A stretch of DNA of 64,000 bases. Origin: Aerophototrophica crusticola. Its GTDB lineage: Bacteria > Pseudomonadota > Alphaproteobacteria > Azospirillales > Azospirillaceae. The stretch is taken from the NCBI GenBank assembly GCA_001939945.1, contig MOEB01000003.1, forward strand, positions 124,001-188,000. The letters run 5' to 3'. The notes beneath the pieces were generated by a model. That model worked only from the letters and a program-made list of their open reading frames with translations. It was not told the DNA's origin and made no database searches. Positions 32,597 to 58,965 of the stretch are shown one piece after another. The stretch's first letter is position 1. Each line of letters opens with the position of its first letter. The position numbers and the translations under genes were made by a program.

Positions 32597-34549
32597 CTAC
32601 TTCTCCTCCATCTTCACCTTGTCCCCCATTTCGCCTTTCCGCAGACGGTCCAGATGCAGGCGGGTGGGGCCGTCGTCGGGGCGGTCGGCGGCCAGGGACT
32701 CGAAGGCGTCAAGGGCGCCCGGGTCCTTGGCTTCCAGCAGGGCGTAGGCGGCCAGGTAGGCCTGGGTGAAGGGGCTGGCGGCGTCCTCCGCCGACAGGGG
32801 CTGGTAGACCGGGATGGGTTCCGTCTTGCCCTTCAGGACGATGCGGCCCACGGGGCGGCGGGGGATGTCGGGGCAGAGGCTGGCGGTGGCGCCGCTCATG
32901 GCGACGCGGGTGCCCAGGTACTTGTTCAGCCCCTCCAGCCGCGCGGCGGTGTTCACGTTGTCGCCCAGGGCCGTGTATTCGAACCGCAGCTCCGCGCCGA
33001 AGTTGCCGACGCTGGCCGGGCCGGAATGCACCCCGATGCGGGTGACGCCGAAGGCGCGGCCGGCGGCCTGTTCCGCCGCCAGGAAGGTTTGGGCGAACTG
33101 GTCCAACTCCAGCGCGCAGGCCGCGGCCCGGGCGGCGTGGTCGGGCTGGTCCTTGGGGGCGTTGAACAGGGCGAAGACGGCGTCGCCGATGAACTTGTCC
33201 ACCGTGCCGCCATGGCGGAACACCACCCGCACCATGCCGTCCAGGTAGCGGTTCATGACGTCGGACAGGCTGGCGGCGTCCATACCCTCCGCGATGGTCG
33301 TGAAGCCGGCCACGTCGGTGAAGATATAGCTTAGCTCCCGCCGCTTGGGGTCGAGCTGCAGCTTGGCCGGGTCGCGCAGGATGTCGTCCAGCAGGGCGGG
33401 GGACAGGTACTTGCTGAAGGCGCCCTGGATGAACTTGCGCTGTTCCCGCTCCTGCCGGCCGCTGTAGAGGTCGGCCATCCAGAGGGCCAGGGACAGGGCG
33501 AGCGACGGGGTGATGACAGGCACCATGACAGCCTGGTACCGGAACAGCAGGAACGCCCCCACCCAGATGCCCAGGATGCCGGCCAGGCCCAGCAGGGTGC
33601 GCAGCCACAGCGCCACCTCCATCCGCCCCAGCAGCAGCCCCACCAGGGCGGCGAGGGTGCAGGCGAGGAGGGAGAGCCACAGCCCCTGGGCCGGCGGGGC
33701 CTTGGCGTCCATCAGTTGGGCCAGCTTGTGGGCATGGACCAACACGCCGGGCATGGTGCTGTCCAGCCCGGTGCGGGCGGCGCGGAAGGGCGTCAGGTGC
33801 CGGTCGGCATCCAGCAGCACCGCCCCCACCAGGACCACCTTGCCCTTGAACCATGCGGGGGGGAGCACGGCGACGGTGTGGGCGGGGAATTGCCGGAAGG
33901 GTGGGGTGGCGCCGTCCTTTGCCCCGCGCCAGGCGATGGGCGTGCCCTCCGGCAGGGCGGCGGGCCGGCCCAGCTTCGTCAGCAGCGCCTCGCTGATCCC
34001 GGGCAGGCGGGTGCCGTCGGCCAGGGCCTTGGCCGTGAAGTATTCCCGCACCACCCCATCATAGGGGTCCTTGCGCAGGTTGGCGGCGGCGCGCAGGCCG
34101 GGGGGCAGGAATTGCTCCAGGAACCCCACCTGGGCGGCCGTCGCCCCCTCCGCCCCGTCGCCATAGCTGACCACGACGGGAATCTTGAGGTCGGCCAGGG
34201 CTTGGCGCAGGGCCTCGTCCTTGGCGGGCTCCGTCGGCGTGTCCAGCAGCACGTCCAGGAAGATGGCCGCCGCCCCCTTCTGCTCCAGCGTGCGCAACAG
34301 GTCGGCCAGGAAGCCGCGGTCGATGGGGCTGCGGTAGGGAAACCGCGCCACCGTCTCCTCCGTCAGGGCGGCGACGACGATGTCCGGGTGCTGCGGCTCC
34401 GGCGGCAGCAGGGTGGCGACGCGGTAGTCGGCCACCCAAGTCTCGAACCCGCCCAGGAACGGCAGCAGTCGCTCCATGGTCAGCGGCAGCAATGCCGCCG
34501 CCAGGGCAAGGGCGGCCATCAGGGCGGCGCGGCGCAGGCGGGGGCTCAA
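32597..34549 (-). CDS. CHASE2-domain class III adenylate cyclase
   Basis: This 650-residue membrane protein makes a cyclic nucleotide from NTP. An N-terminal helix (about 8-27) is followed by a periplasmic CHASE2 sensor (about 30-290; VADYRVATLLPPEPQHPDIVVAALTEE is cut here to its DIVVAALTEE core), three membrane helices (about 295-375) and a cytosolic cyclase domain. The metal-binding aspartates are in FTDVAGFT (about 410) and FIGDAVFALF (about 455). The purine-specifying pair is Lys in DKFIGD and Thr in EYTALGDNVN; Lys/Thr is the signature of class IIIb cyclases, which make cAMP and are often bicarbonate-responsive. It follows the two HD-type genes with only a four-base gap, so cAMP synthesis and breakdown may be co-expressed. 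The signal sensed by CHASE2 is unknown. Confidence 0.92.
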   Translation of the reverse strand: MSPRLRRAALMAALALAAALLPLTMERLLPFLGGFETWVADYRVATLLPPEPQHPDIVVAALTEETVARFPYRSPIDRGFLADLLRTLEQKGAAAIFLDVLLDTPTEPAKDEALRQALADLKIPVVVSYGDGAEGATAAQVGFLEQFLPPGLRAAANLRKDPYDGVVREYFTAKALADGTRLPGISEALLTKLGRPAALPEGTPIAWRGAKDGATPPFRQFPAHTVAVLPPAWFKGKVVLVGAVLLDADRHLTPFRAARTGLDSTMPGVLVHAHKLAQLMDAKAPPAQGLWLSLLACTLAALVGLLLGRMEVALWLRTLLGLAGILGIWVGAFLLFRYQAVMVPVITPSLALSLALWMADLYSGRQEREQRKFIQGAFSKYLSPALLDDILRDPAKLQLDPKRRELSYIFTDVAGFTTIAEGMDAASLSDVMNRYLDGMVRVVFRHGGTVDKFIGDAVFALFNAPKDQPDHAARAAACALELDQFAQTFLAAEQAAGRAFGVTRIGVHSGPASVGNFGAELRFEYTALGDNVNTAARLEGLNKYLGTRVAMSGATASLCPDIPRRPVGRIVLKGKTEPIPVYQPLSAEDAASPFTQAYLAAYALLEAKDPGALDAFESLAADRPDDGPTRLHLDRLRKGEMGDKVKMEEK

Positions 34550-40121: not shown

Positions 40122-40197
40122 GATGCCCCCGCGGCGATGGGGTGCCGCGGGGATGCAGGGGGTGCCGGCGGGGACCGGCAAGGGCCGGGGGGCTTGG

Positions 40198-41034
40198 ATG
40201 GCCGTACACGAATCATTCCTGGAATACCGGGGCTTCCGGTTCCTGAAGGCGGCGGGCGCGCTCGTCGCCCTCTCCATCCTTTTGTATGTCTTGTACACCC
40301 CCATCGGCCCGCACAACGGCGGGACCTGGCTGGGCTATGGCCTGGGCACCGTCGGGTTGGTGCTGATCGGCTGGCTGACCTACCTCGGCGTCCGCAAGCG
40401 GCAGTACGACCTTGGCCCGGTGAAGCTGAAGGCCTGGGTCTCCGCCCATGTCTACCTTGGTCTTTCCCTCCTGGTGGTGGGGACGCTGCACACCGGGTTC
40501 CAGTTCGGCTGGAACGTGCACACCCTGGCCTATGCCCTGATGGTGGTGGTGATCGCCAGCGGCATCTACGGCGTCTACGCCTATGTCCGCTACCCCACCC
40601 TGATGACCGCGAACCGGGGCGGCCAGACCCTGGACACCATGATGCGCGCCGTGGCGGAGCTGGACCGGCAATGCCGCGACCTGGCCATGGGGCTGGGCGA
40701 CGAGGTGGCGCGGGTGGTTCTGGACAGCCAGCAGAACACGGTGATCGGCGGCAATGCCTGGGCGCTGCTCAGCGGCAAGGTCCGCGGCTGCCCCACGGGC
40801 CGGGCCGTCACCCGGGTGGAGGAACTGGCAAAAGGCACCGCCGACGCCACGGCCGACCGGTTGGCGGCGCTCCTGTCCCTGCTCCGGCGCAAGGCCGGGC
40901 TGCTGCGGCGCATCCGCAAGGACCTGCAGTACCGGGCCCTGATGGAGGTCTGGCTCTTCGTGCACGTGCCCCTGTCCGTCGCCCTGCTGGCGGCGCTGCT
41001 GGTGCACGTCTTCGCCGTGTTCTTCTATTGGTGA
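40198..41034 (+). CDS. Di-heme b-type membrane cytochrome, putative quinol-oxidising subunit
   Basis: This 278-residue protein has about five membrane helices (roughly 15-33, 45-65, 82-100, 107-127 and 256-277) and a cytosolic helical domain between the last two. Two helices each carry a His-x13-His pair: HVYLGLSLLVVGTLH and HVPLSVALLAALLVH. Two His pairs 14 apart in two helices is the classical arrangement for two stacked b hemes crossing the membrane. It is not an obvious member of a named family. It leads a four-gene unit with three multiheme c-type cytochromes, so a role passing electrons between the quinone pool and the periplasm is inferred. The ATG at 40198 is preferred over 40123 because a G-rich site precedes it and the extra N-terminus would lie in the terminator region. 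Confidence 0.75.
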   Translation: MAVHESFLEYRGFRFLKAAGALVALSILLYVLYTPIGPHNGGTWLGYGLGTVGLVLIGWLTYLGVRKRQYDLGPVKLKAWVSAHVYLGLSLLVVGTLHTGFQFGWNVHTLAYALMVVVIASGIYGVYAYVRYPTLMTANRGGQTLDTMMRAVAELDRQCRDLAMGLGDEVARVVLDSQQNTVIGGNAWALLSGKVRGCPTGRAVTRVEELAKGTADATADRLAALLSLLRRKAGLLRRIRKDLQYRALMEVWLFVHVPLSVALLAALLVHVFAVFFYW

Positions 41035-41047
41035 CGGGAGCGGTCCG

Positions 41048-42811
41048 ATGAAGATCCTGGTCCGCTATGTGACCCGCCGCCCCCGCGGCAACACGGTCAA
41101 CCGCGACGAGTTGGTGGAGGCGACGGAGCTGGGCATCGGCCGCGGCGCCGGTAACGCCCTGCACCTGTCCGACATCCGCATCCAGTACAACCACGCCGTC
41201 ATCCACCCCGCCGGCCCCGGCCACGCCACCATCCAGGCCCTGGGCGACGCGGATTTGGCTGTCAACGGCAAGCCCGTGCGCACGGCGGAGGTAAGCCCCG
41301 GCGACGAGATCGACGTGGGTCCGTACCGGCTCCGCCTGCTGGAGCCGGGGGAGGGACACGAGGTCGGCGTCTCCGCCGAGCTTGTGGCGCCCCAGTCCGA
41401 TGACGAGGAACGGGTGCGCGCCTGCGCCCGCACCAGCTTCGCCAGGGAGATGCCGGGCCGCCGCCCCATCGCCTGGGCCCTGGTGTCGGCGGTGCTGGTG
41501 CTGTTCCTGGCCCTGCCGCTGTACAGCTTCCTGGCGGAGCGGCCGACGGTCACGTCCGACGCGGGCCTCGACCCCGCCAGGATGGAGGCGATGCACCAGC
41601 GGATCGCCTTCGACACGGTCTGGACCAGCGGCGCCATCTCCGGCCCGCACCGCTTCACGGCGGAGAACTGCACCGCCTGCCACCAGGACGCCTTCGTCAT
41701 GGTGCGCGACAGCTCCTGCACCGCGTGCCACCAGGACATCGGCCACCACGCCGACCCGGCGGTGGCCGCCCTTGTGGGGGGCCTGGCGGAGACGCGCTGC
41801 GCCACCTGCCACAAGGAGCATGAGGGGCCGCAGGCCGCCGTGCAGGACGACCAGCGCAGCTGCACCACCTGCCACGCCAATTTGAAGGCGGAGCACCCCA
41901 AGACCGGCTTGCAGGACGTCTGGGCCTTCGACCCCGGCAAGCACCCGCAGTTCCGCCCGTCCGTCGTGACCGACGGCGCCACCGGGAAGGTGGAGCGGCT
42001 GGAGGTGGGCGGGCAGGTGCCGCTGGTGGAGAGGTCCAACCTGGTCTTCCCGCACAGCCGCCACCTGAAGGCGGAGGGCATCCGCGGGCCGGACGGCACC
42101 GTGAAGATGCAGTGCAGCGACTGCCACACCCCAAGCGGCGGGCTGTTCCAGCCGGTCAGCATGGAGAAGAACTGCCAGTCCTGCCATGCCATCAAGTTCG
42201 ACCCCGCCAGCCCCGCCCGCACCGTGCCCCACGTGGCGGCGGAGAAGGCGCTGGAGGTGGTGCGCGACCACTTCAACAGCATCGTCCTGTCCGGCAACTA
42301 TGACGACGTCACTGCCCCGGCGGTGGTCCGCCGCCGGCCCGGCACGGAGATGAAGCCGGAGGAGCGGGCCCAGGCCCTGCAATGGGCCGCGGTCAAGACG
42401 GGGGAGGCCATCGACCGGCTGGCCGGCAAGTCCGGCTGCGGCGGCTGCCATGTGGTGACCAAGGCGGGGGAGGGTGCCACGGCGACCCTGGCGGTGGCCA
42501 AGCTGCACGTCACCGACCGCTGGATGCCGAAGGGCATCTTCGACCACCCCAGCCACGACACCATGTCGTGCGACAGCTGCCACGCCGCCAAGACGAGCCA
42601 GGTCGCCACGGACGTGCTGCTGCCGGGGGTGCAGACCTGCACCGCCTGCCACGGCCCGCAGGAGGCGGCGGCCAAGGTGCCCAGCACCTGCGTCACCTGC
42701 CACGTCTTCCACCAGCCCGGCCTGCCGGCCATGCGGCCGGGCCCCGACGGCAAGACGGCCGCCCACCCCGCGCCCGCCCTGGCGCCCACGCCCGCGAGTG
42801 CTTCGCGATGA
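41048..42811 (+). CDS. FHA domain fused to a membrane-anchored decaheme cytochrome c
   Basis: This 587-residue protein starts with an FHA-like phosphopeptide-binding domain (about 20-100: LGIGRGAGNALHLSDIR, then YNHAVIHP, VNGKPV, and PGDEIDVGPYRLRLLE). A single helix at about 140-165 (PIAWALVSAVLVLFLALPLY) places the rest in the periplasm, where ten CXXCH motifs occur between residues 208 and 552: CTACH, CTACH, CATCH, CTTCH, CSDCH, CQSCH, CGGCH, CDSCH, CTACH and CVTCH. Many extra His residues could be distal ligands. The protein would therefore carry ten c hemes outside and a pThr-sensing domain inside, a combination I do not recognise from known systems. The FHA has no canonical Ser/His pair (QYNH in place of SRxH), so phosphobinding needs testing. 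It starts 13 bases after the cytochrome b gene and overlaps the next gene (ATGA). Confidence 0.88.
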   Translation: MKILVRYVTRRPRGNTVNRDELVEATELGIGRGAGNALHLSDIRIQYNHAVIHPAGPGHATIQALGDADLAVNGKPVRTAEVSPGDEIDVGPYRLRLLEPGEGHEVGVSAELVAPQSDDEERVRACARTSFAREMPGRRPIAWALVSAVLVLFLALPLYSFLAERPTVTSDAGLDPARMEAMHQRIAFDTVWTSGAISGPHRFTAENCTACHQDAFVMVRDSSCTACHQDIGHHADPAVAALVGGLAETRCATCHKEHEGPQAAVQDDQRSCTTCHANLKAEHPKTGLQDVWAFDPGKHPQFRPSVVTDGATGKVERLEVGGQVPLVERSNLVFPHSRHLKAEGIRGPDGTVKMQCSDCHTPSGGLFQPVSMEKNCQSCHAIKFDPASPARTVPHVAAEKALEVVRDHFNSIVLSGNYDDVTAPAVVRRRPGTEMKPEERAQALQWAAVKTGEAIDRLAGKSGCGGCHVVTKAGEGATATLAVAKLHVTDRWMPKGIFDHPSHDTMSCDSCHAAKTSQVATDVLLPGVQTCTACHGPQEAAAKVPSTCVTCHVFHQPGLPAMRPGPDGKTAAHPAPALAPTPASASR

Positions 42812-45800
42812 GAACGCGACGGATGACACGCTGGCTGGGCCTGCTGGCCGCGCTGGTCCTCTCCGCCCCCGCGCTTGGCGCTGGCGGGGAGAAGCCGGTG
42901 GAGCGGACCTACGTCACTGCCCCGCCCGCCCCCTACAGCCAGACGCAAGGACAGGCGGACGCCAAGAGCGCCGGCTGCATGACCTGCCACACGGCGGTGG
43001 ACCAGCCCAGCATGCACGACGCCAAGTCGGTGGTGCTGGGCTGCACCGATTGCCATGGCGGTAACGCCAATGTCCGCTGGGGCGGCAAGGGGCACCAGCC
43101 GGGCACGCCGGGCTACAAGGAAGCCATGGAGCAGGCCCACGTCCTGCCCCGCTATCCCGAGTTCTGGGGCCATGCCGGGGCGGCGAACCCGGAGCGCAGC
43201 TATGCCCAGCTGAACAAGGAGGCGCCGGAGTTCATCCGCTTCATGAACCCCAGCGACTACCGCGTGGCGCGCGAGGCCTGCGGCGCCTGCCACCTTCCGG
43301 TGATCCAGGCGGCGGAGCGGTCGCTGATGGCGACGAACGCCATGTTCTGGGGCATCGTCACCTACAACAACGGCATCTTGCCCTACAAGGATTACATCCT
43401 GGGTGAGTCCTACACCCGGGACGGCAAGCCGGCGGTGTTGAAGAGCCCCGTCTTCAAGAAGACCGACCAGACCTATAAGAACCGCATCCTGGATGTCATC
43501 TACCCCATGCCGCGCTGGGAGGTGATCCCGCCCGCCGACATCTTCCGCGTGTTCGAGCGGGGTGGCCGCAACATCAACAGCCTGTTCCCGGAGATCGGCC
43601 TGCCCAACAGCCTGGGCCAGACCCAGCGGCTGGAGGAGCCGGGCCGCCCCGACATCCGGCAGAGCAACCGCGGTCCCGGTACCGGCCTGCGCATCGCCGT
43701 GCCGGCCATCAACCTGCACAAGACCCGCCTGAACGACCCGCTGATGTGGTTCCAAGGCACCAACGACCAGCCGGGCGACTACCGCCAGTCGGGCTGCGCC
43801 GGCTGCCACGTGGTCTATGCCAACGACCGGGACCCGCGCCACTCCAGCATCTATGCCAAGTTCGGGCATGGGGGGCTGAGCCAGCAGGCCGACCCCACCA
43901 TCCCCAAGGACCGGCCCGGCCACCCGCTGAAGCACGCCTTCACCCGGCAGATCCCCACCAGCCAGTGCATGGTCTGCCACATGCACCAGCCGAACCTGTT
44001 CATGAACACGTACCTCGGCTACACCATGTGGGATTATGAGTCGGACGCCCCGGCCATGTGGCCGGAGAAGCAGGCCTACCCGACCGACGCCGAGGTCCGC
44101 GCCATCAACGACCGCAACCCGGAAGGGGCGGCGGTGCGCGGCAAGTGGGGCGACGTGGAGTTCCTGAAGCGGGTCAGCGAGCTGAACCCGACCCTGAAGG
44201 ACACGCAGTTCGCCGACTACCACGGCCATGGCTGGAACTTCCGCGCCATCCACAAGCGGGACCGCAAGGGCAACCTGCTGGACAAGGACGGCAACAAGGT
44301 CGACGCCAACGACCCGGAGAAGTGGAAGAAGGCCGTCCACATGTCGTCCATCCACGTGGACGTGGGCATGCAGTGCGTGGACTGCCATTTCGCCCAGGAC
44401 GGCCATGGCACCGGCATGATCCATGGCGAGGTCAGCTCCGCCATCGAGATCACCTGCAAGGACTGCCATGGCACCAGCCAGGCCTTGCCGACCCTGAAGA
44501 CCAGCGGCCCGGCGGCCCGGCCCGGCGGCTTCGACCTGGCTTCCATCCGCAACGCGGACGGCAAGCGCCGGTTCGAGTGGGTGGGCGACAAGCTGGTCCA
44601 GCGCTCGGCGGTGAAGCCGGGGCTGGAGTGGGAGATGTCCCTGGTGAAGAACACCGTGGACCCCAACAGCCCGCACTACAACGCCAAGGCCGCCCGGGCC
44701 AAGCTGATGTCCAAGGACACGGCCACCCAGGCCTGGGGCCCGGGCGTCGCGCCCCAGGACCTCGCCCACAAGGACGAGGAGATGGCCTGCTTCACCTGCC
44801 ACCTGTCCTGGACGACAAGCTGCGGCGGCTGCCACCTGCCCATCGAGGCCAACTGGAAGACCCCGCTGCACCGGTATGAGGGCGGGGAGACCCGCAACTA
44901 CGCCACCTACAACCCGCAGGTGGCGCGGGAGGACATGTTCCAGCTCGGCAAGCACGGGCCGGACAAGGACGGGCAGGTGGCGCCCTTCGCGTCACGGTCG
45001 GCCCTGGTTCTGTCCTCGACCAACATCAACCGGGAACGCCTCTACATCCAGCAGCCGCCCATCGCGGCCTCCGGCTACTCGTCCCAGGCCTTCGCCCCCC
45101 ACTACCCGCACACGGAGCGGAAGGAGGAGACGAAGACCTGCACGGACTGCCACCTTTCAACCGAAGGCGACAACAACGCCATCATGGCGCAGCTGCTGCT
45201 GCACGGGACCAAGTATGTCGACTTCGTCGGCTTCTTCGCCTGGGTCGGCGCCGATGGCGGCGTGGAGGCGGTGCGCGTGACGGAGTGGGACGAGCCGCAG
45301 GCGGTGGTGGGCAGCTACCTGCACCGCTACGCCTATCCCGACTGGTTCAAGGAACATGTGGACCGCGGCCGGGAGCTGAAGACCGACGGCACGCGGGAGA
45401 TCGACAGCGTCGCCAAGGACGCCGGCCGGGCGAGCTGCATCCAGATGCGCGGGGAGTACCTTTACGTCTCCGAGGGCAAGGGCGGGTTCCAGGTCTATGA
45501 CATCGCCTCCGTCGCCAACAAGGGCGTGTCGGAGAAGATCCTGACGGGGCCGTTCTCCCCCCTCGGCCACGACACCCATGTGCCGACGAAGAACGCCACC
45601 TGCGTGGTGCTGCCCACCACCCAGCCCATCGCCCCCAACCGGAACGAGGGGGAGCTGATGCGGGTGACCAACATGGAACAGCCCATGCACCCCATCTACC
45701 GCCACGCCTACGTGACGGACGCGGAGGAAGGACTGGTCGGGGTGGACATCACCACCCTGACCGACGGCGACCCGCAGAACAACTTCCTGGAACGGGACCT

Positions 45801-46806
45801 GACCTTCAACCCGGGCGGGCTGCTCACCGGAGCGCGCCACCTGGCCATCGCCGGCACCACCTTCTACGTGGTGGCGGACAAGGGGGTGGTGGTGCTGGAC
45901 ATGGACCAGCCCAAGGCGCCCAAGGTGCTGGCCACCATCCCGTTGGACGATGCCCGCGCCGCGGCGGTGCAGTTCCGCTACCTGTTCGTGACCACGTCCG
46001 AAGGGCTGCGGGTCGTTGACGTGACCACCCCGGCCAAGCCGCGGCTGGTCCAGGGGGCGCTGGTGCCGCTGGCGGACGCCCGCAAGCTGCACGTGGCCCG
46101 CACCTACGCCTATGTGGCGGCGGGCAAGGACGGCCTGGCCATCATCGACGTGGAGAAGCCGGAGAAGGCGTTCCTGTACCAGGCCTTCAACGCCGGGGGC
46201 ACCATCAACGACGCCTATGACGTGGTGGTGGCCTCCACCAACGCGTCGCTGTTCGCCTATGTGGCCGACGGGAAGAACGGGCTGAAGGTGTTGCAGCTCA
46301 CCTCCCCCGCCTCCCAGCCGAACTTCTACGGCTTCAGCCCGGAGCCGAAGCCGGAGCTGATCGCCTGGCGGAAGACGGTGCACCCGGCCCTGTCGCTGTC
46401 GCGCGGGCTGGAGCGGGACCGGGCGGTGGACGAGACGGGGCACCAGATCGCCGTGGTCGGCCGCAAGGGCTCCCGCCCCTTCACCCTGGAGGAGCAGAAG
46501 CAGCTCTACCTGGACAAGGCGGGCAAGCCCTGGGCCGTGACCGACAGGGTGGTGAAGGAAAGCTTCAAGCCGGCCGACACGACGCCGAAGCCCGTGCCGG
46601 CCCCGCCGGCGGGCGAGGGTGGGCGGCGCAAGCCGGGCGAGGGTGGGCCGGCAGGCCAGGGCACCGGCCCGGCCCTGCCGCCGAAGGACACGTCGCCAAG
46701 CCCGCCGCCGGAACAGTGGCGCCGCCGGCCGGGGGTGGAAACCTCCGTCCAGGCGGGCGGGGGTGCCGGGGCGGCAAAGGACGGTAGTGTGGGGGCGATG
46801 CGATGA
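42808..46806 (+). CDS. Decaheme cytochrome c with C-terminal LVIVD beta-propeller
   Basis: This 1,332-residue exported protein has a signal peptide (MTRWLGLLAALVLSAPALGAG, inside an extended start at 42808 that overlaps the previous gene as ATGA; the ATG at 42823 is the alternative). Ten CXXCH motifs lie between residues 57 and 782: CMTCH, CTDCH, CGACH, CAGCH, CMVCH, CVDCH, CKDCH, CFTCH, CGGCH and CTDCH. From about 870 to 1180 there are about six LVIVD-type repeats (YVSEGKGGFQVYDIA, GLVGVDITT, KGVVVLDM, EGLRVVDV, DGLAIIDVEKP, NGLKVLQL), which should form a beta-propeller. The last 80 residues are Pro/Gly-rich. Size and export suggest a periplasmic or cell-surface electron carrier, with the propeller for docking. 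No catalytic family is recognised, so it could also be a reductase. Confidence 0.88.
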   Translation: MRTRRMTRWLGLLAALVLSAPALGAGGEKPVERTYVTAPPAPYSQTQGQADAKSAGCMTCHTAVDQPSMHDAKSVVLGCTDCHGGNANVRWGGKGHQPGTPGYKEAMEQAHVLPRYPEFWGHAGAANPERSYAQLNKEAPEFIRFMNPSDYRVAREACGACHLPVIQAAERSLMATNAMFWGIVTYNNGILPYKDYILGESYTRDGKPAVLKSPVFKKTDQTYKNRILDVIYPMPRWEVIPPADIFRVFERGGRNINSLFPEIGLPNSLGQTQRLEEPGRPDIRQSNRGPGTGLRIAVPAINLHKTRLNDPLMWFQGTNDQPGDYRQSGCAGCHVVYANDRDPRHSSIYAKFGHGGLSQQADPTIPKDRPGHPLKHAFTRQIPTSQCMVCHMHQPNLFMNTYLGYTMWDYESDAPAMWPEKQAYPTDAEVRAINDRNPEGAAVRGKWGDVEFLKRVSELNPTLKDTQFADYHGHGWNFRAIHKRDRKGNLLDKDGNKVDANDPEKWKKAVHMSSIHVDVGMQCVDCHFAQDGHGTGMIHGEVSSAIEITCKDCHGTSQALPTLKTSGPAARPGGFDLASIRNADGKRRFEWVGDKLVQRSAVKPGLEWEMSLVKNTVDPNSPHYNAKAARAKLMSKDTATQAWGPGVAPQDLAHKDEEMACFTCHLSWTTSCGGCHLPIEANWKTPLHRYEGGETRNYATYNPQVAREDMFQLGKHGPDKDGQVAPFASRSALVLSSTNINRERLYIQQPPIAASGYSSQAFAPHYPHTERKEETKTCTDCHLSTEGDNNAIMAQLLLHGTKYVDFVGFFAWVGADGGVEAVRVTEWDEPQAVVGSYLHRYAYPDWFKEHVDRGRELKTDGTREIDSVAKDAGRASCIQMRGEYLYVSEGKGGFQVYDIASVANKGVSEKILTGPFSPLGHDTHVPTKNATCVVLPTTQPIAPNRNEGELMRVTNMEQPMHPIYRHAYVTDAEEGLVGVDITTLTDGDPQNNFLERDLTFNPGGLLTGARHLAIAGTTFYVVADKGVVVLDMDQPKAPKVLATIPLDDARAAAVQFRYLFVTTSEGLRVVDVTTPAKPRLVQGALVPLADARKLHVARTYAYVAAGKDGLAIIDVEKPEKAFLYQAFNAGGTINDAYDVVVASTNASLFAYVADGKNGLKVLQLTSPASQPNFYGFSPEPKPELIAWRKTVHPALSLSRGLERDRAVDETGHQIAVVGRKGSRPFTLEEQKQLYLDKAGKPWAVTDRVVKESFKPADTTPKPVPAPPAGEGGRRKPGEGGPAGQGTGPALPPKDTSPSPPPEQWRRRPGVETSVQAGGGAGAAKDGSVGAMR

Positions 46807-48179
46807 GCGTTGTGGGGAAGGGGGAGGCCATGTCTGGCAATCGGCTTGTCGCGCGCGCCGCGGCGTGGGTCCTTGGGGCGTTCGTGGCGCTGGCGGGCGG
46901 GGCTGCCCAGGCCGCCGACGTGGCGCTGCCGCACCAGGCCAAGGACGTGCACCTGGGCGTGGCGAGCTGCGCCGGCAGCACCTGCCACGGCGCGGTGGCG
47001 CCCTGGCGGGACAGCAACGTGCTGCAGAACGAATACACCACCTGGATGGCCAAGGACCCGCACGCCAAGGCGTACAGTGTGCTGCTGAACGACCATTCCA
47101 AGCGCATCGCGAAGAATTTGGGCATCCCCGCGGCGCATGAGGCGAAGGTCTGCCTGGACTGCCACGCCGACAACGTGGCCCCCGCCCAGCGCGGGGCGCA
47201 GTTCCAGCTCTCCGACGGGGTGGGGTGCGAGGCCTGCCACGGCGGGGGCGAGCGCTGGCTGGGCATCCATGTCAGCGGCAAGGCCACCCACGCCCAGAAC
47301 GTGGCCGCCGGCCTGTTCCCGACGGAGGACCCGAAGCACCGGGCCAACCTGTGCCTGGGCTGCCACCTGGGCGACGAGACCCGGGCTATCACCCACAAGA
47401 TCATGGGCGCCGGCCACCCGCGGCTGGCCTTCGAGCTGGACACCTTCACCAGCATCCAGCCGGCCCACTACCGGGTCGACGACGACTATGCCAAGCGCAA
47501 GGCGGTGGCCAACGGGGTGAAGACCTGGGCCATCGGCCAGGCCATCGCCCTGTCCAAGTTCATGGACCTGGTGGCAGACCCGGCCCGCAACCGCGACGGC
47601 ATCATGCCGGAGTTCGTGCTGTATGACTGCCAGTCCTGCCACACGCCCCTGAACAACATGACCTGGCAGGCCCAGGCCACCCAGGGCATCGGGCCGGGGG
47701 TGCCGCGGCTGCACGGGGCCAACGCGGCCATGCTGAAGGTGATCGCCGCCGCTGTGGCGCCCGGCATGCAGGCGGAGCTGGTGGAACGGTCCCGCGCCCT
47801 GCACGCCGCCAGCCAGCGCGACAAGGCGGAGATGGAGCGGGCGGCCAAGGCCCTGAAGCAGACGGCGGACAAGCTGGCCGACAGCTTCGCGGGCCGCGCC
47901 TTCGACGGCAACGACATCCGCGCCCTGATGCAGGCGCTGGTGGCCGCGGGGCTACAGGAGGGCTATGCCGATTATGCCAGCGCGGAGCAGACCACCATGG
48001 CCCTGTCGGCGGTGATCGACGCGCTGAAGGCCACCGGCCAAGTGGACCCGACGCGGCACCGGGGCATGCAGCAGGCACTGGAAGCCTGCTATGCCGCGGT
48101 GAAGCAGGACGCCACCTACACGCCCGCCGCCTTCACCGCCGCCTTGCAGCAGTTCCAGGCGGCCATGCCGGCATTCTGA
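46803..48179 (+). CDS. Cytochrome c554-like multiheme protein
   Basis: This 458-residue protein has a signal peptide (MSGNRLVARAAAWVLGAFVALAGGAAQAAD from the internal ATG at 46830 is cut here to its core AAWVLGAFVALAGG; either ATG is possible). It has four standard heme motifs, CLDCH, CEACH, CLGCH and CQSCH, plus one expanded motif CAGSTCH (CX4CH) at the N-terminus. The pattern ASCAGSTCHGAVAPW followed by NEYTTWMAKDPHAKAY is characteristic of the cytochrome c554-like family. The last 150 residues are helical and Ala-rich without hemes. It overlaps the previous gene by four bases (ATGA) and ends the operon before a strong hairpin. It probably exchanges electrons with the two decaheme proteins. 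Confidence 0.88.
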   Translation: MSVVGKGEAMSGNRLVARAAAWVLGAFVALAGGAAQAADVALPHQAKDVHLGVASCAGSTCHGAVAPWRDSNVLQNEYTTWMAKDPHAKAYSVLLNDHSKRIAKNLGIPAAHEAKVCLDCHADNVAPAQRGAQFQLSDGVGCEACHGGGERWLGIHVSGKATHAQNVAAGLFPTEDPKHRANLCLGCHLGDETRAITHKIMGAGHPRLAFELDTFTSIQPAHYRVDDDYAKRKAVANGVKTWAIGQAIALSKFMDLVADPARNRDGIMPEFVLYDCQSCHTPLNNMTWQAQATQGIGPGVPRLHGANAAMLKVIAAAVAPGMQAELVERSRALHAASQRDKAEMERAAKALKQTADKLADSFAGRAFDGNDIRALMQALVAAGLQEGYADYASAEQTTMALSAVIDALKATGQVDPTRHRGMQQALEACYAAVKQDATYTPAAFTAALQQFQAAMPAF

Positions 48180-49531: not shown

Positions 49532-49897
49532 ATGCGACCGTTCCTGGCTGGTGTGCTGCTCCTGTCCATTTCCGGCGCGTCTGCCTTGGCGGCGGATGGG
49601 GGCGGCGAGGCTGTCGGTGGGCGGGATGACCCAGCGCGGGCGTCCGGTTGCCCCGTGCGCAGGAAGGTGGAGGCCGGGGCAGCCTTCGGCGGGGGACGGA
49701 CGGCGCGGCACTTGGGGGCGCAACTGGACTATGGCGCCCCGGGTCCCGGCGGGCCGGAGCCCTGCAAGGAGACGGGCCTCGCCTTGTCCTTCTCCCTGTC
49801 CCAGACCCATTTCAGCGGAACCGGCCGCGATAGCCCCGACAGGCCGGTCAACCGCCCTGCCGGACCTCCCGCTCGAGGCGGGCCAGCAGGTCGGTGA
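49532..49897 (+). CDS. Small secreted protein, hypothetical
   Basis: The ATG at 49532 is preceded by GGAG at a suitable distance and opens a 121-residue frame with a good signal peptide (MRPFLAGVLLLSISGASALA). The mature part is Gly/Arg-rich with two Cys (GCPVRRK, EPCKETG) and a beta-like SLSQTHFSGTG. No family is recognised. Its last 50 bases overlap the end of the di-heme cytochrome gene on the other strand. The signal peptide and ribosome site are the only support, so an incorrect 3' end or a decayed gene is possible. Confidence 0.45.
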   Translation: MRPFLAGVLLLSISGASALAADGGGEAVGGRDDPARASGCPVRRKVEAGAAFGGGRTARHLGAQLDYGAPGPGGPEPCKETGLALSFSLSQTHFSGTGRDSPDRPVNRPAGPPARGGPAGR

Positions 49898-50342
49898 AGA
49901 AGCCGATCTCTTCCGCGGTCAGGCGGAGCTTGGCATGCCGGGGCAGGAATTGCGCCAGGGCTTGGCCGGATTTGCGTGCATAGAGGGTGCCGTCCCTGAG
50001 CTCCAGGGACTCCCGTGCCAGGGCGGCGGCGCTCTCATGGCAGCGGCCGCAGCGTTCCTGGAAACGGGGCGGGGTGGAGGCCTGGGCCAGCAGCATGTCG
50101 TGGACGGGCCCCACCAGATCCCGCGGCACATGGTGATTGGCCAGGAAGGCTGCCAAATCGTCCCGGTGATGGCGCCCCAACAGGCGGCCGTCCTCCACGG
50201 TGAGGAAGCGACGCGCGAAGGGGCCGGCATGGCCGTGGCAGTCGGCGCAGGTGCCTTCCCAGAATTGGTGGAGGTCGGTGCCCGCCCCGCCGGGTGCCAG
50301 CAGCATTGGCGCCAGCAAGGCCAAAGCCATGGCGAACCTCAT
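49848..50342 (-). CDS. Small di-heme cytochrome c
   Basis: This 164-residue periplasmic protein has a signal peptide (MRFAMALALLAPMLLAPGGAG) and two c-type heme motifs, CADCH (32-36) and CGRCH (98-102). Its sequence (FWEGTCADCHGHAGPFARRFL, core ADCHGHAGPFARR, and ANHHVPRDLVGPVHDMLL) resembles small di-heme electron carriers with His or Met axial ligands. The ATG at 50342 is chosen because GGGGAGGGG lies just upstream; the GTG at 50345 is the alternative. It stands alone, converging on a small secreted protein gene. It may be a soluble carrier for the multiheme or nitrate systems, but nothing in the sequence fixes its partner. Confidence 0.85.
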   Translation of the reverse strand: MRFAMALALLAPMLLAPGGAGTDLHQFWEGTCADCHGHAGPFARRFLTVEDGRLLGRHHRDDLAAFLANHHVPRDLVGPVHDMLLAQASTPPRFQERCGRCHESAAALARESLELRDGTLYARKSGQALAQFLPRHAKLRLTAEEIGFFTDLLARLEREVRQGG

Positions 50343-50573
50343 CACGGACCCCTCCCCGCGGATACCCGCCCTATGCCTATACCCGCGCCAGCCGGGGTGG
50401 CAATTCCCCTTCCGGGGCGTGGCCGCCCCCTCGATTGACCCATGTCATGGCAGGCACTGGCGACCCGGATCATCCTGCCCATAAGCAGAAGACCGCCCGG
50501 GCCCGGCACAGGATGCCCCGGCCACGCGGCAATGGAGCGGCCGAGGCAGGCCGCCATGACAATGGAGGAACCG

Positions 50574-53058: not shown

Positions 53059-53688
53059 TCAGTGGCCGGCGGCGGCCGTGGCGGGCATGGTCCAGACCGG
53101 CACGCCGGTCATGTCCGGCAGCGTGTGGGCGATGCCCTTGTGGCAGTCGATGCAGGTGGCCTTGTTGGTGAACAGGAACTCCTGGTGGGCGGCGGCCCCG
53201 CGGGCGCCCTGGCGGGTGATGTCCATGGACTCCGCGCTGTGGCAGTTCCGGCACTCCAGCGAGTTGTTGGCCTTCAGCCGGGCCCATTCGTGGCCCGCCA
53301 GCTCCTTCTTCTTGGCGGCGAATTTCTCCGGCGTGTCGATGGTGCCGAAGATCTTGCCCCAGACCTCCTTGGAGGCCTGCATCTTGCGGGCGATCTTGTC
53401 CGTCCAGTTGTGCGGCACGTGGCAGTCCGGGCAGGTGGCCCGCACGCCCGAGCGGTTGCTGTAGTGGATGGTCTGCTTCAGGTCGGCATAGGGGTTGTCG
53501 CGCATCTCATGGCAGCCGATGCAGAAGGCCTCCTTGTTGGTGGCCTCCAGCGCCGTGTTGAAGCCGCCCCAGAAGATGACGCCGGCCACGAAGCCGCCGA
53601 CGGTCAGGAAGCCGAGGCCCAGGTGGACGGCCGGGCGGTTGAAGGCCGCCCAGGCCTGCCTGGCCAGGCAGATCAGTCGGGAGAACAT
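53059..53688 (-). CDS. napC: Tetraheme quinol dehydrogenase NapC
   Basis: This 209-residue NapC/NirT-family protein takes electrons from membrane quinol and passes them to NapB. One N-terminal helix (about 20-42, [18 protein letters not shown]) anchors a periplasmic domain with four heme motifs: CIGCH, CPDCH, CRNCH and CIDCH. The order and spacing match the family. The ATG at 53688 overlaps the napB stop (TGATG), and longer in-frame codons lie within napB. The last 25 residues are Ala-rich and variable. Confidence 0.95.
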
Positions 53689-54251
53689 CACTTGCCCCCC
53701 TTCGCGGCTGGGGGATGGGCGCCGCGGATCACGCTGTCCACGTCCTGGAACAGGTTGGGCACCCGGGGCTGCACGTCCGACTGGGGCACGTGGCATTGCA
53801 GGCAGAAGTACCGCCGGGCGGAGACGGCACCCAGCACCTGGCCGTCACGGTCCTGGAAGTGGGTGACCGAGACCATGGGCGCCTGACTGTCGCCGGTCAT
53901 CTCCCGGCTGTGGCAGGTCAGGCACTTGTTGGCGTTCAGGTCCAGCTGGTAGCCGGCGACCGAATGCGGGATGACCGGCGGCTGCTCCGGGTAGTTGCGC
54001 TGCTTGCGGCGGTCGTCGGTCACGTCCTTCGGGATCGGCGCCGCCTCCTGCACCGTCAGGCCGTCGGCCCCGGTGAAGGCGGGCCGGCCGCTGGCGGCCA
54101 CGTCGCGGGCGGTGCTGGACTGCGGGGCCTGGGCGGTCTGGGCCACGGGCTGCTTGTCGGTGGCCAGCGCCACCTTCGCCAGGGGCACCGCCAACACGGG
54201 CAGGGCGGCGAGGGCGGCCAGGGCCAGGGCGGTGCGGAAGCTCTTGTTCAT
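53688..54251 (-). CDS. napB: Periplasmic nitrate reductase di-heme subunit NapB
   Basis: This 187-residue periplasmic cytochrome delivers electrons from NapC to NapA. It has a signal peptide ([26 protein letters not shown] is given here as core [15 protein letters not shown]), two heme motifs (CLTCH and CLQCH), and family phrases [20 protein letters not shown] (core [10 protein letters not shown]) and [12 protein letters not shown]. The usual NapB His axial ligands are present near VTHFQDRDG. It lies three bases after the napA stop and overlaps napC. Confidence 0.95.
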
Positions 54252-54254
54252 GGG

Positions 54255-56756
54255 TCAGGCCCCCAGCGCCGGCGTGATCCGCACGGCGCACTTCTTGAAG
54301 TCGGTCTGCTTGGAGATCGGGTCCGTGGCGTCCATGGTGACCCGGTTGATCAGCACGTCCGCGTCGAACCAGGGCACGTACACCAGGCCGCGGGGCGGCT
54401 TGTTGCGACCGCGGGTCTCCACCCGCACCCGCACCTCGCCGCGGCGGGAGGCGACCACCACCTCCTGCCCGCGCCGCACGCCCAGCGCCTGGGCGTCGTC
54501 CGGGTGCATGTAGCAGAGCGCCTGGGGCACGGCCCGGTGCAGCTCCGGCACGCGCCGGGTCATGGAACCGCTGTGCCAGTGCTCCAGCACGCGACCGGTG
54601 CTCAGCCAGAACGGGTAGTCCTTGTCCGGGCTCTCCGCCGGCGGCTCATAGGGCAGGGCGAAGATGCGGGCCTTGCCGTCCTTGTGGCCGTAGAAGCGCA
54701 TGCCCTCGCCCGCGGGGACGTAGGGGTCGAGGCCCTCGCGGAACCGCCACTTGGTCTCCTTGCCGCCCACCACGGGCCAGCGCAGGCCGCGCTCCGCATG
54801 GTAGGTCTCGTAAGGCGCCAGGTCGTGGCCGTGGCCGCGGCCGAACTCCGCATATTCCTCGAACAGGCCCTTCTGCAGGTAGAAGCCGAAGGCCTTGGCC
54901 TCCCGGTTCTCATAGGCCGGGTCGCACTCCGTGACGGGGAACTTGTTGACCGTGCCGTTGGCGAACAGCAGGTCGAACATGGTCTTGCCGCGGTACTGGG
55001 GTGCCTTGGCCAGCAACTCCTCCGGCCAGACCTCCTCCATCTTGAAGCGCTTGGAGAACTCCACGAGCTGCCACAGGTCGGACCGCGCCTCGCCGGGGGC
55101 GGGGACCAGCTGGTGCCAGGCCTGGGTGCGGCGCTCCGCGTTGCCGTACACGCCTTCCTTCTCCACCCACATGGCCGCGGGCAGCACCAGGTCGGCCGCC
55201 ATGGTGGTGGCGGTGGGGTAGGCGTCGGAGACGACGATGAAGTTGTCGGGGTTGCGGTAGCCGGGGTAGGTCTCGTTGGCGGTGTTGGGCGCCGCCTGCA
55301 TGTTGTTGTTCACCTGCACCCAGTAGCAGTTCAGCTTGCCGTCCTTCAGCATGCGGTCCTGCAGCACGGCGTGGTAGCCGGGCTTGGCCGGGATTGTGCC
55401 CTCGGGCAGCTTCCAGATGTGCTCCGCGTGGGCGCGGTGCTCCGGGTTGGTCACCACCATGTCGGCGGGCAGGCGGTGGGAGAAGGTGCCCACCTCCCGC
55501 GCCGTGCCGCAGGCGCTGGGCTGGCCGGTGAGGGAGAAGGGGCTGTTGCCGGGCTGGCTGATCTTCCCGGTCAGCAGGTGGATGTTGTACAGCAGGTTGT
55601 TCGCCCAGACCCCGCGGGTGTGCTGGTTGAAGCCCATGGTCCAGAAGGACATGACCTTCACCTTGGGGTCGGCGTACAGCTCTGCCAGGGCCAGCAGCCG
55701 GTTGGCCGGCACGCCGGACATCTGGGACGCCTTCTCCACCGTGTAGGGGGCGACGAAGGCCGCGAACTGGTCGAAGTCGATGGGGTCGGACTCGGTGGCC
55801 TTGGCGGCGTTCTTGGCCGCCTTCTCCAGCGCATGGTCCGGGCGCAGGCCGTAGCCGATGTCGTCCCGGCCCTTGACGAAGACCGTGTGCTTGCCGACGA
55901 ACTCCTTGTTCACGCGGCCGGTCTTGATGATGTGGTTGGCGATGAAGTTCAGGATCGCCAGATCGGTCTGCGGCGTGAACACCATGGGGATGTCCGCCAG
56001 CTCGAACGACCGGTGCTCGAAGGTGGACAGCACCGCCACCTTCACGTCCGGCTTGGACAGGCGGCGGTCGGTGACCCGGGTCCACAGGATCGGGTGCATC
56101 TCCGCCATGTTGCTGCCCCACAGCACGAAGGCGTCGGCCTGCTCGATGTCGTCGTAGCAGCCCATGGGCTCGTCGATGCCGAAGGTGCGCATGAAGCCGG
56201 CCACGGCGGAGGCCATGCAGTGCCGGGCGTTGGGGTCGATGTTGTTGGAGCGGAAGCCGGCCTTCATCAGCTTGGCCGCGGCATAGCCCTCATGGACCGT
56301 CCACTGGCCGGAGCCGAACATGCCGATCCCCTCCGGCCCCTTGGCCTTCAGGGTGGCCTTCCACTTCTCCGCCATGATGTCGAAGGCCTGGTCCCAGGTG
56401 ACGGGCGTGAACTCGCCGTCCTTGGCGTACTTGCCGTCCTTCATGCGCAGCATCGGCGTGGTCAGCCGGTCCTGGCCGTACATGATTTTGGACAGGAAAT
56501 AGCCCTTCACGCAGTTCAGGCCGCGGTTGACCTCCGACTTCTGGTCGCCGTGGGTGGCGACGACCTTGTCGTCCTTCACGCCCACCATGACGCCGCAGCC
56601 CGTGCCGCAGAAGCGGCAGGGGGCCTTGGACCATTTCACGGCGGCGTCGGCGCCGGTGGGCAGGTTGGCCGCACCCGCCTTCAGGGTCACGCCAGCGGCA
56701 GCGGCGGCGGACAGCGCCGCCTGGGCCTTCAGGTAATCGCGTCGGGTGAGGGTCAT
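54255..56756 (-). CDS. napA: Periplasmic nitrate reductase catalytic subunit NapA
   Basis: This 833-residue molybdoenzyme reduces nitrate to nitrite in the periplasm. It has a twin-arginine signal ([11 protein letters not shown]), a [4Fe-4S] motif with Cys47, Cys50, Cys54 and a fourth Cys in LNCVKGYF, and the Cys that ligates molybdenum in [10 protein letters not shown] (about residue 182). Later family phrases include [32 protein letters not shown] (core [12 protein letters not shown]) and [19 protein letters not shown]. Its length is typical. The ATG at 56756 overlaps the napD stop (ATGA). Longer upstream codons would read through napD in another frame and are rejected. Confidence 0.97.
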
Positions 56757-57022
56757 GGCAGGGCTTCCCCAAGGGCCGCGGTGGGCTCGGCGTGGTGGTA
56801 GACAAGAAGGGCGCTGAGCACCCCCGGGATGGCATTGATGGCGTCGAGGGCCTCGACAACGGCGCGGCTCGTGGGCCGCTCGACCAGGACCACCAGGCGC
56901 CCGCCGCCGCCCTCGGTGGCGGCCAGCTCGCAGTCCAGGTCCAGGATCCGGCGGCCGATGGCATCGGCCTCGTCCGCCCGGGCGTGGACGACGATGCTGG
57001 AGATGTGGGTCTCTTCGCTCAT
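56753..57022 (-). CDS. napD: NapA signal-peptide-binding chaperone NapD
   Basis: This 89-residue cytosolic protein binds the twin-arginine signal of NapA and holds back export until the cofactor is inserted. It has the family pattern [37 protein letters not shown] and [13 protein letters not shown]. It overlaps napF upstream and napA downstream by four bases each (ATGA), indicating coupled translation. Confidence 0.93.
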
Positions 57023-57297
57023 GCGCGGGCCCCCTCGGCGGGCAGGGTGATGGCCTGGGCCGGGCAGGCGGGCAGGCAGTCGCCGCAGGCGGTGCAGCGG
57101 TCAGCCAGCACCTCCGCCCGGGCGCGGCCGCGGGGCAGCAGGTGGAAGCGGATGGCGTCCTCCCCACAGGCCTCGCCGCAGGTGCGGCAGTAGGACCCCT
57201 GCTCGGCCAGGCAGGCGGCGGCGATGGCGGCCACCGGCGGGCTTGGCGGGGCAGTGACGGGCCGGGCGAACAGGGCGCGTCGGGACAGGGCGGTCAT
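57019..57297 (-). CDS. napF: Short NapF-type ferredoxin
   Basis: This 92-residue protein probably provides reductant or iron-sulfur maturation for NapA in the cytoplasm. It retains two four-cysteine sets: Cys29/37/40/44 (around [14 protein letters not shown]) and Cys68/71/74/78 ([12 protein letters not shown]). Typical NapF proteins are about 160 residues with three or four clusters, so this is a reduced form lacking the N-terminal part. The start ([12 protein letters not shown]) is like that of full NapF, which suggests an internal loss and not a wrong start. It lies between napE and napD. Confidence 0.85.
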
Positions 57298-57309
57298 GGC
57301 CGTCCCCCC

Positions 57310-57468
57310 TCACATGCCCGGCGGGCCGGTGAAGATCTGGTAGATCCAGATGCTCAAGCCATAGGCCCCCACCACGGCCACCGACAACACCGGGAAAAGC
57401 ACCGCGGTGAGAAAGAAAAACGTCAGGAGTTCCCGACGCTTGCTGGGTGTTTCCTGGGAGGTGGGCAT
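57310..57468 (-). CDS. napE: NapE small membrane protein
   Basis: This 52-residue protein (start MPTSQETPSKRRELLTFFFL) has one hydrophobic helix (LTAVLFPVLSVAVVGAYGL) and ends IYQIFTGPPGM. The KRREL segment before the helix, and IYQ...GPPG after it, match NapE. Its role in nitrate reduction is unknown. It is the first gene of the nap operon, 12 bases before napF, and the FNR-type box at 57536-57549 lies 67 bases before its ATG. It is short, but family match and position make it convincing. Confidence 0.9.
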   Translation of the reverse strand: MPTSQETPSKRRELLTFFFLTAVLFPVLSVAVVGAYGLSIWIYQIFTGPPGM

Positions 57469-57535
57469 GGTGGCGTGCCTTGGTTTCTGGCGAATTGTTG
57501 TGCAGGTGACTTATCCTCGGCGGGAAATTGCGGCC

Positions 57536-57549
57536 TTGATCCGGATCAA
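57536..57549 (-). promoter_or_regulatory. FNR-type operator for the nap operon
   Basis: TTGATCCGGATCAA is a perfect match to the FNR consensus TTGAT-N4-ATCAA and a perfect palindrome. It lies upstream of napE. A candidate -10 on the minus strand, GGATAA (reverse complement of 57511-57516), lies about 20 bases downstream, so the box would be centred near -41 as in class II activated promoters. This predicts oxygen- or NO-dependent nap expression by an FNR or NnrR/Dnr-type regulator. Confidence 0.88.
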
Positions 57550-57781
57550 TTGCCGTTCAGCTTCCGAATGGTTAATTTTTGTTATTCTTATTGTCACAAA
57601 CCTGTGGAGGGCCGAAGCAAGGTCCCGGATTCATTGGGGCTTCCCGTTGAGCCCAGGGTGGCACCTGTCGGCGTCCGGCGGCAGGGGTGTGGGGATGGAA
57701 ATCGCCCCGGTGTTTGTTCTGGCGCAAAGTCGGGCACGGCTTGCCCCCGATTTGGGCACGCCGTGGCGAAACTCCGCTGAC

Positions 57782-57795
57782 TTGATCAGGATCAA
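57782..57795 (+). promoter_or_regulatory. FNR-type operator for the Crp/Fnr-family gene
   Basis: TTGATCAGGATCAA is a perfect FNR-type box upstream of the regulator start at 57864 (centre 75 bases before the start codon). It suggests control of the regulator and of the genes behind it by a Crp/Fnr-family protein, perhaps itself. The rest of the 395-base gap (57469-57863) is moderately AT-rich near 57570-57600 (TTTTTGTTATTCTTATTG), with no gene. Confidence 0.85.
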
Positions 57796-57863
57796 GGGCA
57801 AGGCCGGTTGGGTCTGCGAAAGCTTCGCCGGCGACATGGATAACCAGCAGACAGGAGCGCCCC

Positions 57864-58607
57864 GTGCCCCAGGGTCCCTTCCGGCCCGACCCGTCCGTCC
57901 TGCACGGCATGGCCCTGTTCAACGGGCTGGACGCGGCCGGCTATGCCGATGCCATCGCCCAGGCCCGCACCCGCCGGATCGTCCGGGGGGAGGTGATCTT
58001 CACGCAAGGGGCGCCCTGCGACGCCTGCCACGCCCTGATCGACGGGCGGGTGAAGATCCAGCAGGGCGGGGCAGACGGCGGGCAGGCGGTGCTGCGCTTC
58101 GTGGGCCCGGGGGAGATGTTCGGCACGCTTGCCATGTTCATGGCCGGCGGCTACCCGGCGGACGCGGTGGCCGCCACCGACGGGGTGGAGATCCTGTGGG
58201 ACACGCCCGTCCTGCGCGCCCTGATGCTGCGCCACCCGGTCGTCGCCCTGAACGCGCTGGAGATGCTGGGCGGCCGCTTGCAGGAGATGCAGGTGCGGGT
58301 GCGGGAGCTGTCCACCGCGCGGGTGGAGCGGCGCATCGCCAACACCCTGGTGCGCCTGGCCCGCCAGGCCGGGCGGCGCACGGAGGAGGGGGTGGAGATC
58401 GACTTCCCCATCACCCGGCAGGAGTTGGGGGAGATGACCGGCACCACCCTGCACACGGTCAGCCGGGTGATGAGCGGCTGGGAGGCCCAGGGAATCGTGG
58501 AGGGCGGGCGGCAGCACGTGCTGGTCCGCAAGCCCCACGCCCTGGTGGCCCTGGCGGAGGACCTGCCGCCGCCGAGACCCGCCGCCCCGGCGGCGACCGG
58601 GGGATAA
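57864..58607 (+). CDS. Crp/Fnr-family regulator, NnrR-like
   Basis: This 247-residue protein has an N-terminal cyclic-nucleotide-binding-type barrel (RIVRGEVIFTQGAPC, GEMFGTLAMF), a long dimerisation helix (about 125-155) and a C-terminal winged helix-turn-helix (ITRQELGEMTGTTLHTVSRVM). It lacks the N-terminal cysteine set of true FNR, so it should not carry an oxygen-sensing [4Fe-4S] cluster. The recognition helix LHTVSR keeps the Ser-Arg pair that contacts TTGAT-type half sites, with His where FNR has Glu, as in NnrR-like NO sensors. It starts at a GTG six bases after AGGAG. Its neighbours (nap divergently, DUF1858 and nnrS downstream) support control of nitrate and NO metabolism. Confidence 0.88.
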   Translation: MPQGPFRPDPSVLHGMALFNGLDAAGYADAIAQARTRRIVRGEVIFTQGAPCDACHALIDGRVKIQQGGADGGQAVLRFVGPGEMFGTLAMFMAGGYPADAVAATDGVEILWDTPVLRALMLRHPVVALNALEMLGGRLQEMQVRVRELSTARVERRIANTLVRLARQAGRRTEEGVEIDFPITRQELGEMTGTTLHTVSRVMSGWEAQGIVEGGRQHVLVRKPHALVALAEDLPPPRPAAPAATGG

Positions 58608-58686
58608 CCGCCACGCTCCTTGCGCCCGCGCAACGACGGGACGGGGAGCTGGCGGCAGGATGGGCTTCTTGTGATGGAGGTCCCTC

Positions 58687-58965
58687 ATGCAACCCCGCCC
58701 CGACCCCGGGCTGCCCACCCGTGACAGCCTGGTTTCCGACATCCTGGACGCCCGGCCGGCGCTGGGTGCCGTCTTCCTGGCCCGCGGCATGGCCTGCCCG
58801 GGCTGCGCCATGTCCGGCTTCATGACGGTGGGGGAGGCGGCGGAGTCCTACGGCCTGCCGGCGGGGGAGCTGGTGGACGCGCTGCGTGCCGCGGCGGCGG
58901 GTGACGTGCCCGCGGGGCCGTTCCCGCCCACCCGGCCCCATGCCAGCGCGGAGGTCACGCCATGA
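58687..58965 (+). CDS. DUF1858 redox-disulfide domain protein
   Basis: This 92-residue protein matches the DUF1858 domain, a small helical domain often linked to hybrid-cluster proteins. The core is LVSDILDARPALGAVFLARG followed by the conserved ACPGCAMS, whose CxxC could be a redox disulfide or metal site. GGAGGT five bases upstream supports the ATG at 58687. It overlaps nnrS by four bases (ATGA). Its exact biochemical role is unknown, but it travels with NO and nitrite stress genes. Confidence 0.85.
   Translation: MQPRPDPGLPTRDSLVSDILDARPALGAVFLARGMACPGCAMSGFMTVGEAAESYGLPAGELVDALRAAAAGDVPAGPFPPTRPHASAEVTP

Follow-up and report, generated by a model that had tools for sequence, protein, structure and literature searches.

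Multiheme cytochrome conduits are usually regarded as always-on wires that are fed from quinols. Among FHA domains, those of GarA/OdhI, when unphosphorylated, dock on 2-oxoglutarate dehydrogenase. In FHA domains that bind phosphothreonine, the phosphopeptide is contacted by an Arg, a Ser and an Asn, the Ser belonging to the VSRxH motif (PMC4037201); in the degenerate FHA-type domains of type III secretion basal bodies, by comparison, mutation of the pocket is without effect (PMC3635987). As far as literature searches that paired FHA with multiheme or decaheme cytochromes, and LVIVD with multiheme cytochromes, reach, a fusion of FHA domain and decaheme cytochrome appears in a single place: a row of a Table 1, listed under 'Other' and undiscussed, for a 'Forkhead-associated protein' (cluster 403) that has ten CXXCH motifs and occurs in 27 of 87 Gallionellaceae genomes (PMC10734462). 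The statement of a preliminary description that no such fusion is known thus stands insofar as no description was found, and gives way insofar as this row appears to list one; matched by name and by its ten CXXCH motifs, cluster 403 is very probably the family analysed here.

The protein in question is encoded by Aerophototrophica crusticola (Alphaproteobacteria; Azospirillaceae) within a stretch of 64,000 nucleotides (contig MOEB01000003.1), termed here the window, whose numbering is used throughout. The open reading frame starts with ATG, and it and its parts are as follows:

41048..42811, forward strand: FHA-TM-decaheme cytochrome, 587 aa (open reading frame, Pfam FHA and Cytochrome_C7/c3, 82-row alignment)
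41048..41377, forward strand: FHA domain, cytoplasmic, residues 1-110, Pfam match at 30-91 (Pfam, alignment, AF2, Foldseek)
41459..41536, forward strand: single membrane helix, residues 138-163 (AF2, hydropathy, charge bias)
41669..42712, forward strand: decaheme region, periplasmic, residues 208-555 (alignment)

An FHA pattern in the N-terminal 100 residues, one membrane helix and ten CXXCH motifs in an exported part had been noticed earlier, and each of these is borne out. PF00498 matches residues 30-91 (E 1e-6) with 29.5 bits, above the curated cut-off of 20.7, and several multiheme c families in Pfam match C-terminal of it. An AF2 model of residues 1-170, built on a 41-row alignment of relatives, forms an all-beta sandwich (pLDDT 95-98) followed by the helix at 138-163, which hydropathy places at 144-162. 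In a Foldseek comparison with the PDB the best 50 matches listed are FHA domains or FHA-containing proteins, with GarA/OdhI at the top (E 2e-6); structure prediction, which had been proposed as a check, gave the FHA fold, and the contrary outcome of another fold did not appear. The ten CXXCH motifs span residues 208-552, all of them conserved in the family, and the decaheme region holds in addition most of the ten invariant distal His (given below), of which the first, His201, lies just N-terminal to it. Since the attachment of c-type hemes takes place in the periplasm and there is a single membrane helix, the FHA domain is assigned to the cytoplasm (N-in/C-out). In line with this, 74 of 82 relatives are richer in Lys and Arg on the N-terminal than on the C-terminal side of the helix, and a periplasmic N-terminus, named beforehand as contrary to the FHA reading, was not seen.

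Relatives were collected from GTDB genomes with search patterns that derive from the heme region and not from the FHA domain; this yielded 120 relatives, 80 loci being kept, in addition to which 12 Sphingobium plasmid or chromid records were found. The search of other genomes that had been suggested for the same architecture was successful: the 82 relatives that were aligned, which belong to the Alpha-, Beta- and Gammaproteobacteria, keep FHA domain, membrane helix and ten hemes. Across this alignment the ten CXXCH motifs are essentially invariant, and exactly ten more His (201, 234, 258, 299, 336, 339, 395, 500, 503 and 555) are invariant--the pattern expected of ten bis-His hemes, which is accordingly the heme type predicted for the protein. 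With all ten heme motifs and these additional His invariant in the family, the fusion is more than chance. An artefact of annotation or reading frame was considered and is ruled out by the 82 full-length relatives; the FHA-TM-decaheme fusion is confirmed as a genuine protein architecture. The Sphingobium protein of this family is named 'cytochrome c3 family protein' at NCBI, and viral carriage was looked for and none found. (The titles of the metagenome-assembled genomes, or MAGs, at loci L014, L019, L033, L038 and L060--Asaia, Rhizobium, Marinimicrobia, Klebsiella--look doubtful against their tree positions, these being probably mislabelled bins.)

In the window the gene belongs to a tight run of four, the last three of which are linked by ATGA overlaps; its three companions, and a cyclase gene on the opposite strand, are:

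40198..41034, forward strand: b561-like membrane protein (profile, His pattern, start shared with the family)
42808..46806, forward strand: LVIVD-repeat decaheme cytochrome, exported, ~1332 aa (start overlapping the stop of FHA-decaheme in an ATGA)
46803..48179, forward strand: c554-like tetraheme cytochrome, exported (ATGA overlap with the LVIVD-decaheme gene)
32597..34549, reverse strand: CHASE2 adenylate/guanylate cyclase, a possible cyclic-nucleotide source in loose association

The long reading frame of the b561-like protein starts at 40123; in relatives the start corresponds to position 40198. Its conserved His109/His123 and His281/His295 (numbered from 40123), 14 apart in each pair and on two helices, follow the pattern of diheme b cytochromes and predict a diheme b protein. 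The c554-like protein finds structural matches in cytochrome c554; a search for relatives of the LVIVD-decaheme among solved structures found none.

Over the 82 loci the order of genes is flavoprotein, b561-like, FHA-decaheme, a small gene at some loci, HbpS-like lipoprotein, barrel, LVIVD-decaheme and c554-like. The flavoprotein and the b561-like protein are each found at 75 loci, HbpS at 59, the barrel at 55, the LVIVD-decaheme at 48 and c554 at 39, these counts being bounded by the many loci that end at contig ends. In beta genomes the order is the same or nearly so, with the flavoprotein downstream of c554. The flavoprotein combines a pyridine-nucleotide-disulphide oxidoreductase, two cNMP-binding domains and a ferredoxin domain; in each of the two cNMP cassettes the Glu and the Arg that mark ligand-binding cassettes are retained (FGEMGLISGRRRTA and VGEMAMLKRQPRSA), and sixteen conserved Cys make up four [4Fe-4S] motifs. 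The barrel, labelled as a '612 aa' family of unknown function, is modelled as an 18-strand outer-membrane barrel whose nearest match is AlgE (E 1e-16), and 49 of 50 barrel sequences end in Tyr or Phe; that a cytochrome sits inside a barrel of 18 strands, as modelled, is doubtful. Cytochrome c maturation (ccm) genes flank the cluster in several relatives, and a neighbouring gene labelled 'TPR' is judged, from its sequence, to encode a CcmI-like protein. Two further genes accompany subsets of loci: a small conserved exported gene (~140-200 aa) lies between FHA-decaheme and HbpS-like at L002, at L003 and on contig G000:C40, and a CpdA-like metallophosphoesterase, possibly a cyclic-nucleotide phosphodiesterase, lies directly 3' of FHA-decaheme in sphingomonads and a Caulobacterales MAG (L006, at 13821-14666, L007 and L075-L078).

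In this genome all parts of the cluster are present and are dispersed. The flavoprotein lies on the same contig, ~96 kb off (C212:66165-68552); the barrel gene stands at the end of contig C269 and the HbpS-like gene at the start of contig C40, so that the two were probably adjacent and have been split by the assembly. Of the 82 genomes of this taxonomic family, none but the present one encodes the FHA-decaheme, the barrel or the flavoprotein; such joint gain of separately encoded parts--a phylogenetic profile--is good evidence for one system, whose parts this genome probably acquired horizontally. Elsewhere in the window there are a giant reading frame (3921-27527, reverse strand; 7868 aa) with an adhesin-like start containing LEPRMMFDAA, a small exported protein in which CXXCH occurs twice (49848-50345, reverse strand), and a likely periplasmic nitrate reductase block (53059-60176), within which NapB is confirmed at 53688-54251 and which a Crp/Fnr regulator and an NnrS-like gene adjoin.

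On balance it is probable that the FHA-decaheme protein forms the inner-membrane-anchored periplasmic segment of a multi-protein trans-envelope electron pathway that is putatively under cyclic-nucleotide control and in which the FHA domain serves docking or assembly. The observed domains, fold, heme ligands, linkage and phylogenetic profile underlie this reading; electron flow, its direction, gating and docking are what the domains suggest. A cytosolic flavoprotein would take electrons from NAD(P)H, through FAD, to its four FeS clusters and would hand them on, much as FdnH does to FdnI, to the two b hemes of the b561-like membrane protein. From this diheme-b protein they would reach the FHA-anchored decaheme and, in turn, the LVIVD-decaheme and c554-like cytochromes, which, with the AlgE-like barrel and HbpS-like lipoprotein, could send them on to a partner in the outer envelope or outside the cell. 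Cyclic nucleotide would probably gate the input at the flavoprotein, and cyclase-domain genes near the cluster in five relatives (L045, L047, L052, L074 and L076), like the one in the window, are compatible with such control and not proof of it. A conserved cluster that opens with a flavoprotein with two intact cNMP cassettes and also contains an FHA-anchored decaheme suggests that a signal acts directly on electron export. In its full form this proposal is tentative: a second-messenger-controlled electron valve, in which cAMP or cGMP bound to the tandem flavoprotein cassettes gates export through diheme-b protein and FHA-decaheme to the outer membrane, and which, if real, would bring electron export under direct signal control and constitute a new class of trans-envelope conduit in Proteobacteria.

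The pathway might instead end in the periplasm, the LVIVD-decaheme or the c554-like cytochrome being the catalytic enzyme that reduces a soluble compound and the barrel merely importing the substrate. The LVIVD-decaheme is the larger cytochrome and is strongly conserved, it matches weakly the ExtM protein of a selenite/tellurite operon (E 1.6e-14; 53 bits versus a cut-off of 800), the barrel resembles the substrate porins AlgE and Occ, and NapB is encoded nearby; no known catalytic multiheme reductase family, however, scores above its cut-off, and the LVIVD-decaheme lacks a relative of solved structure, so that this alternative is rather doubtful. It is still less likely that electrons flow inward, being taken up from an extracellular or periplasmic donor (e.g., Fe(II) or a cathode) and delivered to membrane and cytoplasm. 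Carriage of the ten-CXXCH Forkhead-associated protein by 27 genomes of Fe(II)-oxidising Gallionellaceae (PMC10734462) fits such uptake, as does the origin of locus L026 from a MAG named Biocath_Alpha; the input module, however, is a pyridine-nucleotide oxidoreductase with FeS clusters, for which reduction of NAD(P)+ from a high-potential donor would be uphill, and no proton-motive device is evident. Against uptake stand also the carriers Sphingobium, Novosphingobium and Colwellia, which are heterotrophs.

The outward pathway leaves the role of the FHA domain to be considered. Its pocket retains Arg32, His49 and Asn73; the Ser position is occupied by Gln46, followed by Tyr47, so that the Ser whose absence had been noted is indeed missing and the Arg, Ser and Asn contact set of phosphothreonine readers is incomplete. 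Among the 82 relatives, Gly31 is invariant, Arg32 is kept in 80 and the Asn73 position is Asn in 55; Ser or Thr occupies the phosphothreonine-contact position in just 5, and the following residue is Leu in 68 and Lys or Arg in none. The pattern of conservation is such that this altered pocket may still bind something. In this genome the decaheme fusion contains the one FHA domain, and a profile search for PF00069 kinases found none (control genomes were positive). Of 44 genomes with the fusion, 24 match PF00069 and 20 do not; several are MAGs, for which single absences are weak, but taken together the counts speak against a required kinase partner. Phosphothreonine signalling in this genome was considered and is rejected on the lost pocket Ser, the missing PF00069 kinase and the single FHA domain. 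That the FHA domain is a true phosphothreonine reader coupling the cytochrome to Ser/Thr kinase signalling, as first proposed, is very improbable, since a sound FHA fold (AF2, Foldseek), a nearly invariant Gly31-Arg32, a frequent Asn73 and many PF00069 kinases in several carriers, mostly beta and gamma, are set against a pocket Ser and a following basic residue lost family-wide, a genome with neither such a kinase nor a second FHA domain, and 20 carriers without a kinase match.

Most likely the FHA domain is a non-canonical, phosphorylation-independent module for docking or assembly, which on the cytoplasmic face would help to keep the flavoprotein or the b-type subunit in place. The family is present in 29 of 399 genomes of one beta order, and in six small beta genomes (L112-L117) the FHA domain is absent, a short cytoplasmic tail alone preceding the membrane helix; in these the b561-like gene adjoins the decaheme gene and the rest of the cluster is present where the contig allows, L117 being less complete. 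The FHA domain as an invariant part of the family thus holds for the first 82 relatives and fails in this sub-clade. Since its loss in one beta clade left the other members of the cluster in place, the FHA domain is, as judged from these gene sets, accessory to electron transfer; and because one FHA-less genome (G301) retains an intact-looking flavoprotein with both cNMP cassettes, docking on the flavoprotein cannot be obligatory. These natural variants offer a ready comparison for the role of the FHA domain.

More generally, the gene cluster is widespread and apparently uncharacterised, no description of it having been found as far as literature searches reach. Its carriers are ordinary Sphingomonads, Rhodospirillales, Burkholderiales and gamma relatives, beyond the classical metal reducers, and include culturable organisms--Sphingobium herbicidovorans, Novosphingobium, Colwellia and Oceanibacterium hippocampi--in which the pathway is directly testable. 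Multiheme trans-envelope electron transfer is a known kind of process; there is a reasonable chance that this cluster represents a distinct, signal-gated class of it.

Compared with known systems, the FHA domain is nearest, by sequence and by fold among the matches listed, to GarA/OdhI, which likewise dock on a metabolic enzyme (complexes 6i2q and 8p5x); these, however, are soluble and phosphothreonine-switched, have the Ser/Arg pocket, and lack membrane helix and hemes. PrgH, YscD and MxiG share the arrangement of a cytoplasmic FHA-type domain with poorly conserved phosphothreonine-binding residues, a single helix through the membrane and then a periplasmic part (PMC3635987), but their periplasmic part is a ring-building module without hemes, whereas here it is a decaheme. 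Of 42 members of the family, 36 match Yop-YscD_cpl in Pfam; the window protein stays below its cut-off (20.8 versus 33.2 bits) and has no periplasmic ring domains. The quinol dehydrogenases NapC, NrfH and CymA resemble it in bearing periplasmic c-hemes on one N-terminal membrane helix, but have four or five hemes and no FHA domain, as against ten hemes and a separate diheme-b partner here; there is no NapC/NNT match in Pfam, and the NrfH model scores 22 versus 134 bits. With MtrAB/MtoAB and PCC3 conduits the cluster shares decaheme cytochromes, an inner-membrane component and an outer-membrane barrel (encoded with the cytochromes at 55 of 82 loci). It differs from them in its decaheme, which lies far below the cut-off for the DmsE/MtrA type (TIGR03508; 23.4 versus 192.2 bits), in its AlgE-like barrel, which has 18 strands in the model as against 26 for MtrB (not among the 50 matches listed), and in its input, a flavoprotein with cNMP-binding domains. 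Finally, as in FdnH/FdnI or DmsB/DmsC, a four-cluster ferredoxin module adjoins a membrane protein (a diheme b in FdnI); here, in contrast, that module forms one polypeptide with a flavoprotein and two cNMP domains and would feed a periplasmic decaheme.
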